Of a DNA stretch of 64,000 nt, positions 3,494-12,547 are shown piece by piece. The notes under the pieces were generated by a model, which saw only the letters and a list, made by a program, of their open reading frames with translations, did not search any database and was not told where the DNA came from. Numbering within the stretch: the stretch's first letter is position 1; the number at the start of each line of letters is the position of its first letter. Origin of the DNA: Herminiimonas contaminans (GTDB lineage: Bacteria; Pseudomonadota; Gammaproteobacteria; Burkholderiales; Burkholderiaceae_D). The stretch is from assembly GCF_015645465.1 (NCBI RefSeq), contig NZ_JADOEL010000015.1, positions 34,659 through 98,658 on the forward strand, written 5' to 3'. Both the position numbers and the translations under genes were made by a program.

Positions 3494-3522
3494 ATGACTG
3501 GGGCATATAATTATGCTATAGT
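3494..3522 (+). promoter_or_regulatory. msrBA1 promoter with palindromic operator in the spacer
   Basis: -35 box ATGACT at 3494-3499, 17-bp spacer, -10 box TATAGT at 3517-3522. The spacer ends in the interrupted palindrome GCATA-TAAT-TATGC (3503-3516), the right size and place for a MarR-type dimer that would block RNA polymerase. A second possible -10 (TATAAT, 3506-3511, with TTGCAC at 3484-3489) lies inside the operator. The same layout recurs at 6838, 8500 and 12271 (minus). Confidence 0.65.
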
Positions 3523-3547
3523 GGTCGATGCGACGAAACAAGTTGCT

Positions 3548-3564
3548 TCATCAACCTCTGGATG
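3548..3564 (+). repeat. Leader repeat, copy 1 (msrBA1)
   Basis: TCATCAACCTCTGGATG in the 5' leader of msrBA1. Exact copies lie in the leaders of msrBA2 (8554-8570) and argS (9782-9798), each preceded by a variant of GACAAGTTG. Confidence 0.75.
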
Positions 3565-3611
3565 ATCGCTCGCACTTCAGTACCAATCTCTAAACTGGAA
3601 GGGATTTTCCT

Positions 3612-4055
3612 ATGGCTTACGCTAAGACCGAAGAGGCCGTTCGACGGCTAACTCCGGAGCAGTATCGGGTCACGCAAAAAAGCGGGACCGAACGTGCAGG
3701 AACTGGAGAATACAATGATCACAAGGAGGTGGGCATTTACGTGGACATCGTTTCGGGAGAACCGCTTTTTGCGTCGTCCGACAAGTTCGATTCCGGATGC
3801 GGGTGGCCTAGCTTTACCAAGCCGATCGTCCCGGCAAACGTGAATGAAATACGCGACACGTCGCACGGCATGACCCGTGTGGAAGTGCGCTCGAACTTTG
3901 GTGACAGCCATCTGGGGCACGTGTTCAAGGACGGCCCGTCCAACCGAGGGGGGCTGCGCTACTGCATTAATTCGGCGTCTCTCCGATTCGTGGCACGTGA
4001 GAACATGCAGGCCGAAGGTTACGGAGACTACCTCGATCAGGTGGGGGATATATGA
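3612..4055 (+). CDS. msrB: Peptide-methionine (R)-S-oxide reductase MsrB, copy 1
   Basis: 147 residues. Reduces the R epimer of methionine sulfoxide in oxidised proteins using thioredoxin. Visible signatures are SGCGWPSF (about 61-68), GDSHLGHVF (about 97-105) and the catalytic-Cys motif RYCINSASL (Cys118). The paired CxxC zinc sites of many MsrB proteins are absent, so this is the zinc-free form; Cys63 is a candidate resolving cysteine. No signal peptide, so cytoplasmic. GGAAGG at 3597-3602 precedes the ATG. The stop overlaps the msrA1 start, giving a translationally coupled operon. A second copy lies at 8656 with about 90% similarity by eye. Confidence 0.97.
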   Translation: MAYAKTEEAVRRLTPEQYRVTQKSGTERAGTGEYNDHKEVGIYVDIVSGEPLFASSDKFDSGCGWPSFTKPIVPANVNEIRDTSHGMTRVEVRSNFGDSHLGHVFKDGPSNRGGLRYCINSASLRFVARENMQAEGYGDYLDQVGDI

Positions 4056-9803: not shown

Positions 9804-9808
9804 TGCTC

Positions 9809-11542
9809 ATGCTCGCCCGACAAAAACAAGAAATCACCGCCCTGTTCCAGGCCGCCCTGGCAGCTGTATTGGCCGGCACCGACGTCGTCGGCACCGTTGT
9901 GTTGGAGCGTCCGCGCGACCCATCGCACGGCGACGTGGCCTGCAACGTCGCCATGCAACTGGCCAGGCAGCTGAAAATGAATCCGCGCGAACTGGCCGCC
10001 AAAGTGGTCGAGGCGCTGCTGGCCAACCCGGCGGGCAAAGGCCTGGTGGAATCGGTCGACATCGCCGGACCGGGCTTTATCAACCTGCGCGTGACCGCCG
10101 CCGCCAGGCAAGCCGTGATCAAGGCCGTGCTGGCACAAGGCGCAGACTACGGCAGCAGCGACGTTGGCGCGGGCAAGAGCGTCATTATCGAATTCGTCTC
10201 TGCCAACCCGACCGGCCCGCTGCACGTCGGCCATGGCCGTCAGGCCGCGCTGGGCGACGCGCTGTCATCGCTGTTCAGCGCCCAGGGCTACGACGTGACC
10301 CGCGAATTTTATTACAACGACGCCGGCGTGCAAATTCAGACCCTGGCCAACTCGGTGCAGGCGCGCCTGCGCGGCCATAAGCCTGGCGATGCCGCCTGGC
10401 CCGAATCGGCGTACAACGGCGACTACATCGCCGACATCGCCGCCGACTTCAGCGCCAGGAAAACCGTGGCTGCCTCAGACGGCTCGCCGGCGGCGGCTTC
10501 GGGCGACGTCGACGACATCGACTCGATCCGCCGCTTCGCCGTGACCTATCTGCGCAACGAGCAGGATATCGACCTGCAGGCCTTCGGCGTCAAGTTCGAC
10601 AACTACTACCTCGAATCGTCGCTGTATGCCGAAGGCAAGGTCGACGCGGCGGTCGATATGCTCAACAGATCCGGCAAGACCTACGAGGAGGCGGGCGCGG
10701 TGTGGCTGCGCACCGAGGACTACGGCGACGACAAGAACCGCGTCATGCGCAAGTCCGACGACAGCTACACCTATTTCGTGCCGGACGTGGCGTACCACAT
10801 CGTCAAGTTCCAGCGCGGCTTCGGCCAGGCGATCAATGTCCAGGGCGCGGACCACCACGGCACCATCGCCCGCGTACGCGCCGGCCTACAGGCGGTCTAC
10901 CTTGGCATCCCGCAGGGTTTCCCCGACTACGTGCTGCACAAGATGGTCACCGTGATGAAGGACGGCGCCGAGGTGAAGATATCCAAGCGCGCCGGGTCCT
11001 ATGTGACGGTGCGCGATCTGATCGAATGGTCCGGCGGCGGCGACATCGAAAAAGGCCGCGACGCGGTGCGCTTTTTCCTTATCTCGCGCAAGGCCGACAC
11101 CGAATTCGTGTTCGACGTCGATGTGGCGCTGAAGACCTCGGATGAGAATCCGGTGTATTACGTGCAGTACGCCCACGCCCGTATCTGCCGCATGCTGGAG
11201 CAGTGGACCGGCGCCGAAGCCGACTTGGCCGGCGTCGACCTGTCGCCGCTGACCGCGCCGACCGAGGCGGCGCTGCTGGCAACGTTGGCGGCCTATCCTG
11301 AAACGCTGGCGCGCGCCCAGGCCGAGTTGGCCCCCCACCAGATCGCCTTCTATTTGCGCGACCTGGCTGCCGACCTGCACAGTTTCTACTTCGCCGAACG
11401 CGTGCTGGTCGACGACGCGGCGCTGAAAGCGGCGCGCATCGCGCTAATGGTCGCCACCCGCCAGGTGCTGCGCAACGGCCTGGCACTCATCGGCGTCTCG
11501 GCTCCTCAAAAAATGGAACGCGAGAGGCCTGCCGCGCAATGA
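9809..11542 (+). CDS. argS: Arginyl-tRNA synthetase
   Basis: 577 residues, full length for a class I ArgRS. Order: N-terminal Add-1 domain (to about 110), Rossmann domain with the HIGH variant HVGHG (His139), SANPTGPLHVGHGRQ, FYYNDAGVQI, the KMSKS-like loop KISKRAG, and the C-terminal DALR anticodon-binding domain (HQIAFYLRDLAADLHSFYF through ATRQVLRNGLALIGVSAP). Start set at 9809, where the alignment with Oxalobacteraceae enzymes begins. The leader is copied from msrBA. The neighbour expected by memory in this family (a SPOR-domain gene) is absent, so this may be a second, mobile argS. The genome would have to show whether it is the only copy. Confidence 0.96.
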   Translation: MLARQKQEITALFQAALAAVLAGTDVVGTVVLERPRDPSHGDVACNVAMQLARQLKMNPRELAAKVVEALLANPAGKGLVESVDIAGPGFINLRVTAAARQAVIKAVLAQGADYGSSDVGAGKSVIIEFVSANPTGPLHVGHGRQAALGDALSSLFSAQGYDVTREFYYNDAGVQIQTLANSVQARLRGHKPGDAAWPESAYNGDYIADIAADFSARKTVAASDGSPAAASGDVDDIDSIRRFAVTYLRNEQDIDLQAFGVKFDNYYLESSLYAEGKVDAAVDMLNRSGKTYEEAGAVWLRTEDYGDDKNRVMRKSDDSYTYFVPDVAYHIVKFQRGFGQAINVQGADHHGTIARVRAGLQAVYLGIPQGFPDYVLHKMVTVMKDGAEVKISKRAGSYVTVRDLIEWSGGGDIEKGRDAVRFFLISRKADTEFVFDVDVALKTSDENPVYYVQYAHARICRMLEQWTGAEADLAGVDLSPLTAPTEAALLATLAAYPETLARAQAELAPHQIAFYLRDLAADLHSFYFAERVLVDDAALKAARIALMVATRQVLRNGLALIGVSAPQKMERERPAAQ

Positions 11543-11556
11543 GACGGCAGGGCTTG

Positions 11557-12195
11557 TTACGACGGCGCGTTCGGCATGGTCATGACGTCGAGTGCGCGCA
11601 GTTCGGCGACGGCCGGCTCACTCATCCACAACGCCGCCAGCATCGCCTGGATGCGGCTGGCGTCCGGCGCCGCCGCCAACGTGGCGGGAGTAAGGGCATG
11701 CGCCCCCAGTGGCAGAGCCGCAGCCGGCCGGCCGGCACCATCGATCACGACCAGCTCGCCGCCGCCCGGCCGGGGCTGGTAGCGTAGCGCCACCAGCCGG
11801 CGCTCGCCGGCGCGGCCGTCTTTTCCCCATGGCCCGACGATCAGGTCCACGTGCGCCGGATGGTCCGGTGCCGCGCCTGCCCAATGCACAAAGTAGACAG
11901 CGCAGACCGCGTCGGTGCTGGACACGCCGCCCCAGGCCAAGCTGCTGCGCCTGCCGCAGCAAGGACATGCGCCCTCGCTTTCGCGCCAGCGGTTTGCGGT
12001 GAACTCTGTTACAAGCAGCGGTGCCGATTCTCGGCTTGGGCGGCGAGCGCGTCGTTCCGAGCATCGGCGCCCGTATGCGTCAGCTCTGCCGCTTCCGGCC
12101 CCACTCCTAGGCTTCTGCATAGACGAATTGAAGGTCGCGACCGCCGCTGGCAACGACTGAGGTACTGCAAAGAACTTTTTCTGGAGCCAATTCAC
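11557..12195 (-). CDS. Hypothetical CPCC-motif protein, copy B
   Basis: 212 residues from GTG 12195; ATG 12120 in the same frame is an alternative. The conserved core shared with the protein at 6127 is ACPCCGRRSSLAWGG, then AVYFVHWAGAAPDHPAHVDL, GPWGKDGRAGERRLVALRY and a C-terminal LAALWMSEPAVAELRALD. The first ~70 residues are basic, low-complexity and not shared, so they may be untranslated. A shared-type promoter on the minus strand (12271-12243) would start transcription about 40 bp before 12195. It is convergent with argS. Function unknown; the CPCC cluster suggests metal binding or thiol chemistry. Confidence 0.65.
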   Translation of the reverse strand: MNWLQKKFFAVPQSLPAAVATFNSSMQKPRSGAGSGRADAYGRRCSERRARRPSRESAPLLVTEFTANRWRESEGACPCCGRRSSLAWGGVSSTDAVCAVYFVHWAGAAPDHPAHVDLIVGPWGKDGRAGERRLVALRYQPRPGGGELVVIDGAGRPAAALPLGAHALTPATLAAAPDASRIQAMLAALWMSEPAVAELRALDVMTMPNAPS

Positions 12196-12547
12196 TTCCT
12201 TTCATGGTACAGGGCAAGATTCTCCAAAGGTCGAATTGCCGTACTATACCGCAATTATATGCGTGAGTCTTATAAATTCCTGCCAGCCAGCCACCATCCG
12301 GTCCGCGCCCAAGGCTACGCCAACAGCCCATGGGGCCAACGGTGACAGGCTCGGAGTGGAAAGCAGGAAAGACGGTGTCACGGTCAATGCGTAGGCTGCA
12401 GCCAGACTGCGACTAGATGTAGCGGCTTGCAGTCGAAAACGCTCGGACCAGGTTGCGGGCCAGACCCTGCTCGACGATACACATTACGGCAAGGCGTACC
12501 CGGTAATTCGAACGCGCGACGTCGTCTCCGGGCCGCTGCAAGCAGGT
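12196..12547. other. Intergenic region with the CPCC-B promoter
   Basis: No supportable gene. Besides the promoter at 12243-12271, the minus strand contains a short ATG frame starting at about 12206 that overlaps the GTG start of the CPCC-B gene in another frame; it is too short to call. Confidence 0.5.
12243..12271 (-). promoter_or_regulatory. Promoter of CPCC-protein copy B
   Basis: On the minus strand: -35 AAGACT (12271-12266), 17-bp spacer, -10 TATAGT (12248-12243), with GCATATAATTGC in the spacer. Same geometry as the msrBA promoters. Confidence 0.6.

Follow-up and report, generated by a model that had tools for sequence, protein, structure and literature searches.

An imperfect palindrome shared by msrBA, transporter and sensory-gene promoters of Herminiimonas contaminans, a likely operator of the cysteine-tailed MarR3

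The stretch analysed here (the window) comprises 64,000 nucleotides (nt) of Herminiimonas contaminans (contig NZ_JADOEL010000015.1, positions 34,659 to 98,658) and holds an island with two msrB-msrA pairs, a gene for an unknown protein followed by a CDF-type transporter, genes for an MCP chemotaxis receptor, an sCache_2 domain protein, a CPCC-B protein and an AhpD-like protein, three marR genes, and a DUF417 (RclC-like) membrane protein gene divergent from marR3 (Table 1). A sequence-only reading of the window had described one promoter architecture at four of these units and placed a MarR-like operator in its spacer; the labels bdcA, bdcR, CPCC and ahpD are taken from it. We compared the window with its own genome (G000; 4,038,814 bases, of which the window's contig makes up 98,658), with G006, a relative of the same genus, with G148, Janthinobacterium sp. 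TND4EL3 (genome of L167), and with further genomes, and report that these promoters share a palindrome that is probably the operator of MarR3.

Results

The four promoter units

The hexamer pairs with a 17-nt spacer were confirmed at 3494-3522 (msrBA1), 6838-6866 (CDF unit), 8500-8528 (msrBA2) and 12271-12243 on the minus strand (CPCC-B gene), and the window has exactly four copies of GCATRYAATT, each in one of these spacers. A scan with the 27-mer pattern GACTNNNGCATATAATTNNNNTATAGT, allowing up to three mismatches, returned four matches in the window and none in 100 shuffles; over the whole genome it returned these four alone, with none for the reversed control, and the exact 27-mer had no match in the genome contigs. 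Because this pattern was written from the sites themselves, a fairer test is that of each 29-mer taken singly: in every case the other three were its best non-self scores on the contig (20-24 of 29, with 0.03-0.2 expected at a score of at least 20).

The palindrome proposed within the spacer fared less well. GCATATAATTATGC (GCATA-TAAT-TATGC) is complete at msrBA1 (3503-3516), the other three sites keep its left arm only, and as a common operator it was rejected, being complete at one of the four. At the AhpD-like gene, where the same core had been claimed (17396-17409), the sequence is ACATATAATTATGT, with two mismatches to it. The sequence-only reading had held that its proposal would fail if orthologous promoters did not conserve the spacer; at the msrBA promoters of G006 and G148 neither the spacer sequence nor the TATAGT distance is kept, and that part of the proposal falls. 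What survives at these promoters is a palindrome that directly follows a TATACT box.

A palindrome that includes the -35 hexamer

As judged by sequence comparison, the conserved element is an imperfect palindrome that includes the hexamer earlier taken for a -35 box, either in a 17-bp form, ATATGAYTSARTCATAT, or in a 21-bp relative, ATATGCATGACTCATGCATAT. It is present at msrBA1, msrBA2, the CDF unit, the CPCC-B gene and the MCP, sCache and marR3/DUF417 promoters, with a weaker candidate at ahpD. The msrBA and CDF promoters of G006 lack GCATATAATT and have ATATGATTCAGTCAT instead; the latter recurs at two promoters of the window, those of MCP (3331) and sCache (5481), its 13-mer core having 0-1 mismatches there. 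ATGACT and GCAT together form a degenerate copy of this palindrome, as seen at msrBA2 when ATGAYTSARTCAT is set against ATGACTGAAGCAT. The earlier call of a MarR-type operator stands with its extent revised: it reaches beyond the spacer, ATGACT being the left half-site and GCATAT the right. The four units keep their place in a set that is wider than had been listed, the MCP, sCache and marR3/DUF417 promoters having been missed.

A matrix was built from six G006 sites, with none from the window, and run over the window's contig; a weaker G006 site at 519753-519769 (four mismatches) was left out, as was one at 483828 (two mismatches), a position beyond the region with a core found in most genomes of the genus. 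The six best positions on the contig were those at MCP (3337), sCache (5487), msrBA2 (8506), the CPCC-B gene (12265), msrBA1 (3500) and ahpD (17393), with 0 to 0.47 positions expected by chance at their scores. The four units of the sequence-only reading and ahpD had played no part in choosing the G006 sites. The site upstream of marR1 ranked ninth.

A single 21-mer from the marR3/DUF417 gap of G244 matched eight positions of the contig at the threshold of at least 15 of 21, with 0.88 expected: seven were candidate operators, with the scores given in Table 1, and the eighth, 53129, has no known role. A palindrome obtained independently of the window therefore recovers all four units. Elsewhere, the same 21-mer reached at least 15 at two positions of the G006 stretch (0.80 expected), a poorer performance, and at two of the G148 contig (0.07 expected). 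Related arms had also been claimed for two gaps; the DUF417/marR3 gap holds a related 21-bp palindrome, and the bdcAR gap lies outside the matches listed for both the G006 matrix and the G244 21-mer.

Table 1. Candidate operators and genes of the window. Positions are those of the window; ranks refer to the G006 matrix and scores out of 21 to the G244 21-mer.
Feature	Position	Strand	Evidence
msrBA1 candidate operator, 21-mer ACATGCATGACTGGGGCATAT	3488..3508 (17-mer core 3492-3508; covers ATGACT)		17/21, best on contig; rank 5
msrBA1 promoter-like unit ATGACT-17-TATAGT	3494..3522	+	pattern scan, 29-mer comparison, promoter match
MCP-promoter candidate operator	3325..3345		rank 1; 16/21; directly after TTGACA-18-TAAACT match (3375-3346, minus)
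sCache-promoter candidate operator ATATGATTCAGTCACACATAT	5479..5499		rank 2; exact ATATG-N11-CATAT; 15/21
Unknown-protein/CDF unit candidate operator AAATGCATGACCAAGGCATGC, weakest of the four	6832..6852		15/21; rank 14
msrBA2 candidate operator ACCTACATGACTGAAGCATAT	8494..8514		rank 3; 16/21
CPCC-B gene candidate operator	12257..12277		rank 4; 15/21
AhpD-like (CMD) gene weaker candidate operator	17385..17401		rank 6, 0.47 expected; outside the G244 21-mer matches listed
marR3/DUF417 candidate operator ATATTTATGCGGCATGCATAT	21700..21720		16/21; orthologous palindromes in G006, G148, G244, G730
marR1 upstream candidate operator	15725..15745		2 mismatches to ATATG-N11-CATAT; rank 9
marR3, MarR-family, C-terminal Cys tail	21754..22335	+	PF12802 35.3 bits, cut-off 27
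DUF417 (RclC-like) membrane protein, divergent from marR3	21058..21549	-	PF04224 90.9 bits
marR1 paralogue	15762..16295	+	PF12802 37.2 bits, cut-off 27
marR2 paralogue	16371..16898	+	PF12802 42.4 bits, cut-off 27
msrB1-msrA1	3612..4558	+	TIGR00357 (MsrB), PF01625 (MsrA)
sCache_2 domain protein	5532..5996	+	
Unknown protein and CDF-type transporter	7002..8472	+	transporter PF01545 91.9 bits; first open reading frame no match
msrB2-msrA2, duplicate of msrB1-msrA1	8656..9602	+	
CPCC-B protein	11557..12195	-	no Pfam or NCBIfam match

Sites in related genomes

The palindrome recurs upstream of msrBA, CDF and GST genes in two relatives, G006 and G148. A genome-wide scan with the 17-mer, limited to three mismatches and controlled with the reversed pattern, gave 14, 16 and 14 places in G000, G006 and G148, with 4, 4 and 5 for the control. 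These places cluster: five of the 14 in G000 lie within 14.1 kb, six of the 16 in G006 lie within 24.5 kb, in a stretch that also holds marR3, marR2, CDF, msrBA and GST, and four of the 14 in G148 lie on the 20.8-kb contig that bears marR3. In G006, msrBA, the CDF transporter, marR2, marR3 and DUF417 occupy one region, and the single G148 contig carries CDF, msrBA, argS, GST, DUF417 and marR3, with identities to the window of 91% for msrB, 79% for CDF, 80% for DUF417, 78% for marR3 and 88% for argS. The four G148 sites stand upstream of CDF, msrBA and a nitroreductase gene and, at a distance of about 300 nt, upstream of GST, from which a short open reading frame (ORF) separates the site; site, short ORF and GST are arranged in the same way in G006.

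Within this operator-GST gap (L065:14715-15016 in G006, L226:9050-9350 in G148), an AAAGGAG ribosome-binding-like sequence and a short ORF starting MQQ[ED]P are conserved. A K_trans (kup-type) gene of G148 has a further operator-like site (L228 4119) 44 nt upstream; close by (L228:2195-5713) there is a molybdopterin-domain gene resembling msrP.

The 13-mer was absent, at up to two mismatches, from the stretches around msrBA in all three of G002, G011 and G139, where MsrB is about 75% identical and the MarR matches were weak only, with no member of the subfamily described below. In G244, which belongs to another family and has a MarR3 65% identical, ATATGCATGACTCATGCATAT stands between the divergently oriented marR3 and DUF417; over 40 kb of this genome, the G006 matrix ranked that palindrome first (18.3; next, 6.7). 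Both G244 and G730 have the marR3/DUF417 pair with one palindrome and no cluster, and the 20 kb examined in G261 (MarR 46% identical) contained the subfamily-type palindrome alone.

The MarR proteins and their cysteine tail

All three MarR proteins of the window pass the winged-helix cut-off of PF12802 and share a C-terminal motif, CRxCD-x3-C-x2-4-CP. The structure model of MarR3 has the helix-strand order of a winged helix (mean predicted local distance difference test score, pLDDT, 83.9). A scan of 84,980 species, one genome each, gave 341 stretches with MarR relatives, and in the best 80 of these the Cys tail was found in 80, by a strict or a looser pattern. Among 46 non-redundant upstream regions from this set of 80, ATATG-N11-CATAT was exact in 19, present with up to one mismatch in 34 and with up to two in 40; control segments gave 0.4 (one mismatch) and 1.5 (two mismatches). 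A 21-bp palindromic operator-like sequence lies at the gene's own promoter, in the marR3/DUF417 gap, in G000, G006, G148, G244 and G730.

Gene neighbours were read for 33 relatives, seven of which gave no ORF call. DUF417 neighbours the MarR gene in 27 of the 80, mostly at the same 73% identity, a near-constancy that probably reflects mobile copies. The pair with this DUF417 identity of about 73% (L124, L133-L158) has carriers among the sphingomonads and acetic acid bacteria and in a Pseudarthrobacter; one copy (L151) is plasmid-borne, another (L133) stands, by eye, beside resolvase-like ORFs, and the pair is probably mobile. In four cyanobacterial and Cytophagales stretches (L106, L114, L116, L159), an exporter-like gene follows the MarR gene on the same strand, with the EamA family confirmed for L116 only, and the subfamily therefore has other targets as well.

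marR3 is rare: counting the window's own genome in both samples, it was found at E 1e-30 or better in three of 399 genomes of the order and in five of the 392 family genomes. Among these five, G672 is apparently the genome of G148 itself, and this assigns Janthinobacterium to the family of the window. marR3 is the only subfamily member common to G000, G006 and G148. G148 has one full MarR of the subfamily, the marR3 orthologue (2.5e-77), and its next match (3.3e-13) stops before the tail; marR1 is reduced to a C-terminal remnant in the G006 region and has no orthologue in G148, and marR2 has an orthologue in G006 (64%) and none in G148. The sequence-only reading had proposed repression by one of the local MarR proteins, and this comparison between genomes, on which the choice among the three rests, points to marR3 as the likely one.

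Neighbouring features

The MCP gene (minus strand, 524-3268), for a chemotaxis receptor, appears to be interrupted by an ORF at 1883-2908, transposase-like as judged by eye, which leaves the parts 2861-3268 and 524-1969. The best-scoring operator of the contig sits at its promoter. A 38-nt leader block with CAACCTCTGGATG is found in the msrBA1 leader (3535-3572), in the msrBA2 leader (8541-8578) and just upstream of argS (9769-9806), and also in the msrBA leader of G006; it has no Rfam match, and no Rfam family reached the gathering threshold in the window or in L066. argS lies directly downstream of msrBA both here (9600-9810) and in Janthinobacterium (L226 3189-4304), an adjacency that suggests a shared insertion point or an old linkage. 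The proteins encoded at 6127-6633 and 11557-12195 are alike by eye; both contain a CPCC motif and the motif HIDLILGPWG/HVDLIVGPWG, and neither has a Pfam or NCBIfam match.

Discussion

The palindrome behind the shared promoter block is probably the operator of MarR3. The protein is predicted to keep the units repressed until its C-terminal cysteines are oxidised or modified. At the four units first described, a MarR3 dimer would lie over the -35 hexamer and part of the spacer ahead of TATAGT, blocking RNA polymerase; at MCP, sCache and the msrBA genes of the relatives it would lie over the -10/start region. Both places would suit a repressor. Derepression would raise methionine-sulfoxide repair, metal export, the DUF417 membrane protein and the sensory proteins together. 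The tail may sense oxidants through disulfides or a zinc site, as suggested by its four invariant cysteines and by the nature of the targets, which include methionine-sulfoxide reductases, GST, a nitroreductase and an RclC-like protein. The inducers would likely be reactive chlorine species or other thiol oxidants, which is the least certain step. The earlier idea of an island set with a MarR-type operator covering repair (msrBA), transport (CDF) and thiol genes is supported by these comparisons.

Several results weigh against this explanation. The msrBA1 and msrBA2 copies are duplicates (300 nt, 85% identity), and the four sites are therefore not fully independent. By the G006 matrix the CDF unit ranked 14, within noise, with 3.1 positions expected by chance, and the MCP and sCache sites were not blind in that test, because the consensus that chose the G006 sites postdates seeing both. 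msrBA1, with four mismatches, and the CDF unit fall beyond the three-mismatch limit of the 17-mer genome scan. That a single protein would bind both forms is assumed, as there is a 2-bp offset between the 17-bp and the 21-bp palindrome. In the upstream regions of the MarR relatives, spacings of 7 and 9 were also enriched, as the palindrome is internally repetitive. The tail of the MarR3 model is of moderate confidence, with a pLDDT of 76 at residues 151-160, 61 at 161-170 and below 50 at 170-185. Noviherbaspirillum sp. Root189 (G149; L171) has 12 places at three mismatches and two for the reversed pattern; the 12 lie at least 23 kb apart, and the contig with its subfamily MarR has none of them. 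They were treated as background, and because this unclustered genome also shows such an excess, it is the clustering and not the count that serves as evidence. A 15-mer with one mismatch matched 22 of 40 genomes, G102 at seven places, scattered and without marR3, and single matches therefore mean little. Finally, the CDF-msrBA gap is identical at 320 of 517 positions between G006 and G148 and both of its 17-mers at 15 of 17, which is supportive only, since 40 of 500 windows are as conserved as the palindromes.

It is also conceivable, though unlikely, that the operator is real and that MarR1 or MarR2 controls the four units here, with MarR3 keeping the DUF417 pair only. Both proteins resemble MarR3 in the Cys tail and over most of the DNA-binding helix, marR1 has an operator-like site upstream, and marR3 itself has the 21-bp form, which differs from that of 17 bp; however, G148 has sites at msrBA, CDF, GST and nitroreductase genes without MarR1 or MarR2, the G006 region retains a MarR1 remnant only, and the marR3 palindrome of G244 retrieves the four units. 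That all four promoters arose from a single ancestor by local duplication, and are alike at -35 and -10 by descent with no common regulator, we regard as highly improbable: the palindrome stands at MCP, sCache and marR3 without TATAGT at that distance, and at the G006 and G148 promoters it has other positions and orientations, which a -35/-10 duplication does not explain, even though the two msrBA copies are duplicates, a 39-nt block runs across three of the four sites and the TATAGT distance is identical at all four. Least credible is binding by a different regulator, such as the TetR-type protein (14115-14708) or a protein of the AraC/Cupin_6 type, two of which are encoded next to a G006 site. 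In its favour, the island does encode a TetR_N protein and one of the G006 sites precedes an AraC/Cupin_6 gene; against it, the bdcAR gap is not among the matches listed for either search pattern.

The two AraC/Cupin_6 regulators of G006 are adjacent (L100:15869-17886), with the operator-like site upstream. As a common factor the G006 protein was rejected, its best matches in G000 and G148 having 27% identity (E 4e-15 and 7e-14, against 1.3e-220 for itself); with this protein, and not E. coli RclR, as query, no orthologue was found in G000, G148 or G244.

OhrR and the thiol-based MarR proteins related to it are winged-helix repressors with palindromic operators over promoters and a cysteine switch. 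The MarR3 system predicted here is like them in its winged helix, in palindromic operators over promoters and in cysteine chemistry as the likely switch. It differs in that the OhrR model NF052638 scores MarR2 at 31.5 and MarR3 at 24.6 bits, short of its cut-off of 200, in that the CRxCD-x3-C-x2-5-CP tail extends beyond the matched stretch of all of the best 60 of 86 PDB chains, and in that the targets are DUF417 and msrBA, not ohr.

A second likeness is to rclABC, the reactive-chlorine regulon of E. coli, where rclC is under the control of RclR (PMC7464077). Both systems place a DUF417 (RclC-like) membrane protein beside a cysteine-bearing regulator, and the window's island has a pyridine nucleotide-disulfide oxidoreductase (18361-19803). 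The window's DUF417 protein meets the broader PF04224 and scores 73.3 bits with the RclC equivalog NF040476, not reaching its cut-off of 275. In contrast to RclR, an AraC-family activator (PMC7464077), the regulator predicted here is a MarR-type repressor, and its set adds methionine-sulfoxide reductases and the CDF transporter. NemR (PMC7464077) is alike in being a repressor released by oxidised cysteines in electrophile and chlorine defence, and unlike in belonging to the TetR family and having other targets. A description of such a regulon was not found in the literature searched, whose coverage left out most subscription papers.

The ancestral unit appears to be an autoregulated marR3/DUF417 pair with one operator, the regulon being an expansion; the direction is suggested by the single palindrome at the pair in G244 and G730, and the larger gene set was found in three genomes of one family. 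More tentatively, an undescribed Cys4-tail MarR subclass, spread from Burkholderiales and Alphaproteobacteria to cyanobacteria, may act as a thiol/reactive-chlorine switch of DUF417 (RclC-like) proteins that in three related genomes has grown from this pair into a regulon adding methionine-sulfoxide repair, metal export, glutathione transfer and chemosensing. If so, a widespread uncharacterised subclass of MarR proteins would acquire an operator, with DUF417 as the likely ancestral target, together with an expanded regulon, and a MarR repressor would join HypT, RclR and NemR, which a 2020 review (PMC7464077) names as the three HOCl-specific regulators of Gram-negative bacteria. It would also provide an example of a one-operator pair becoming a regulon.

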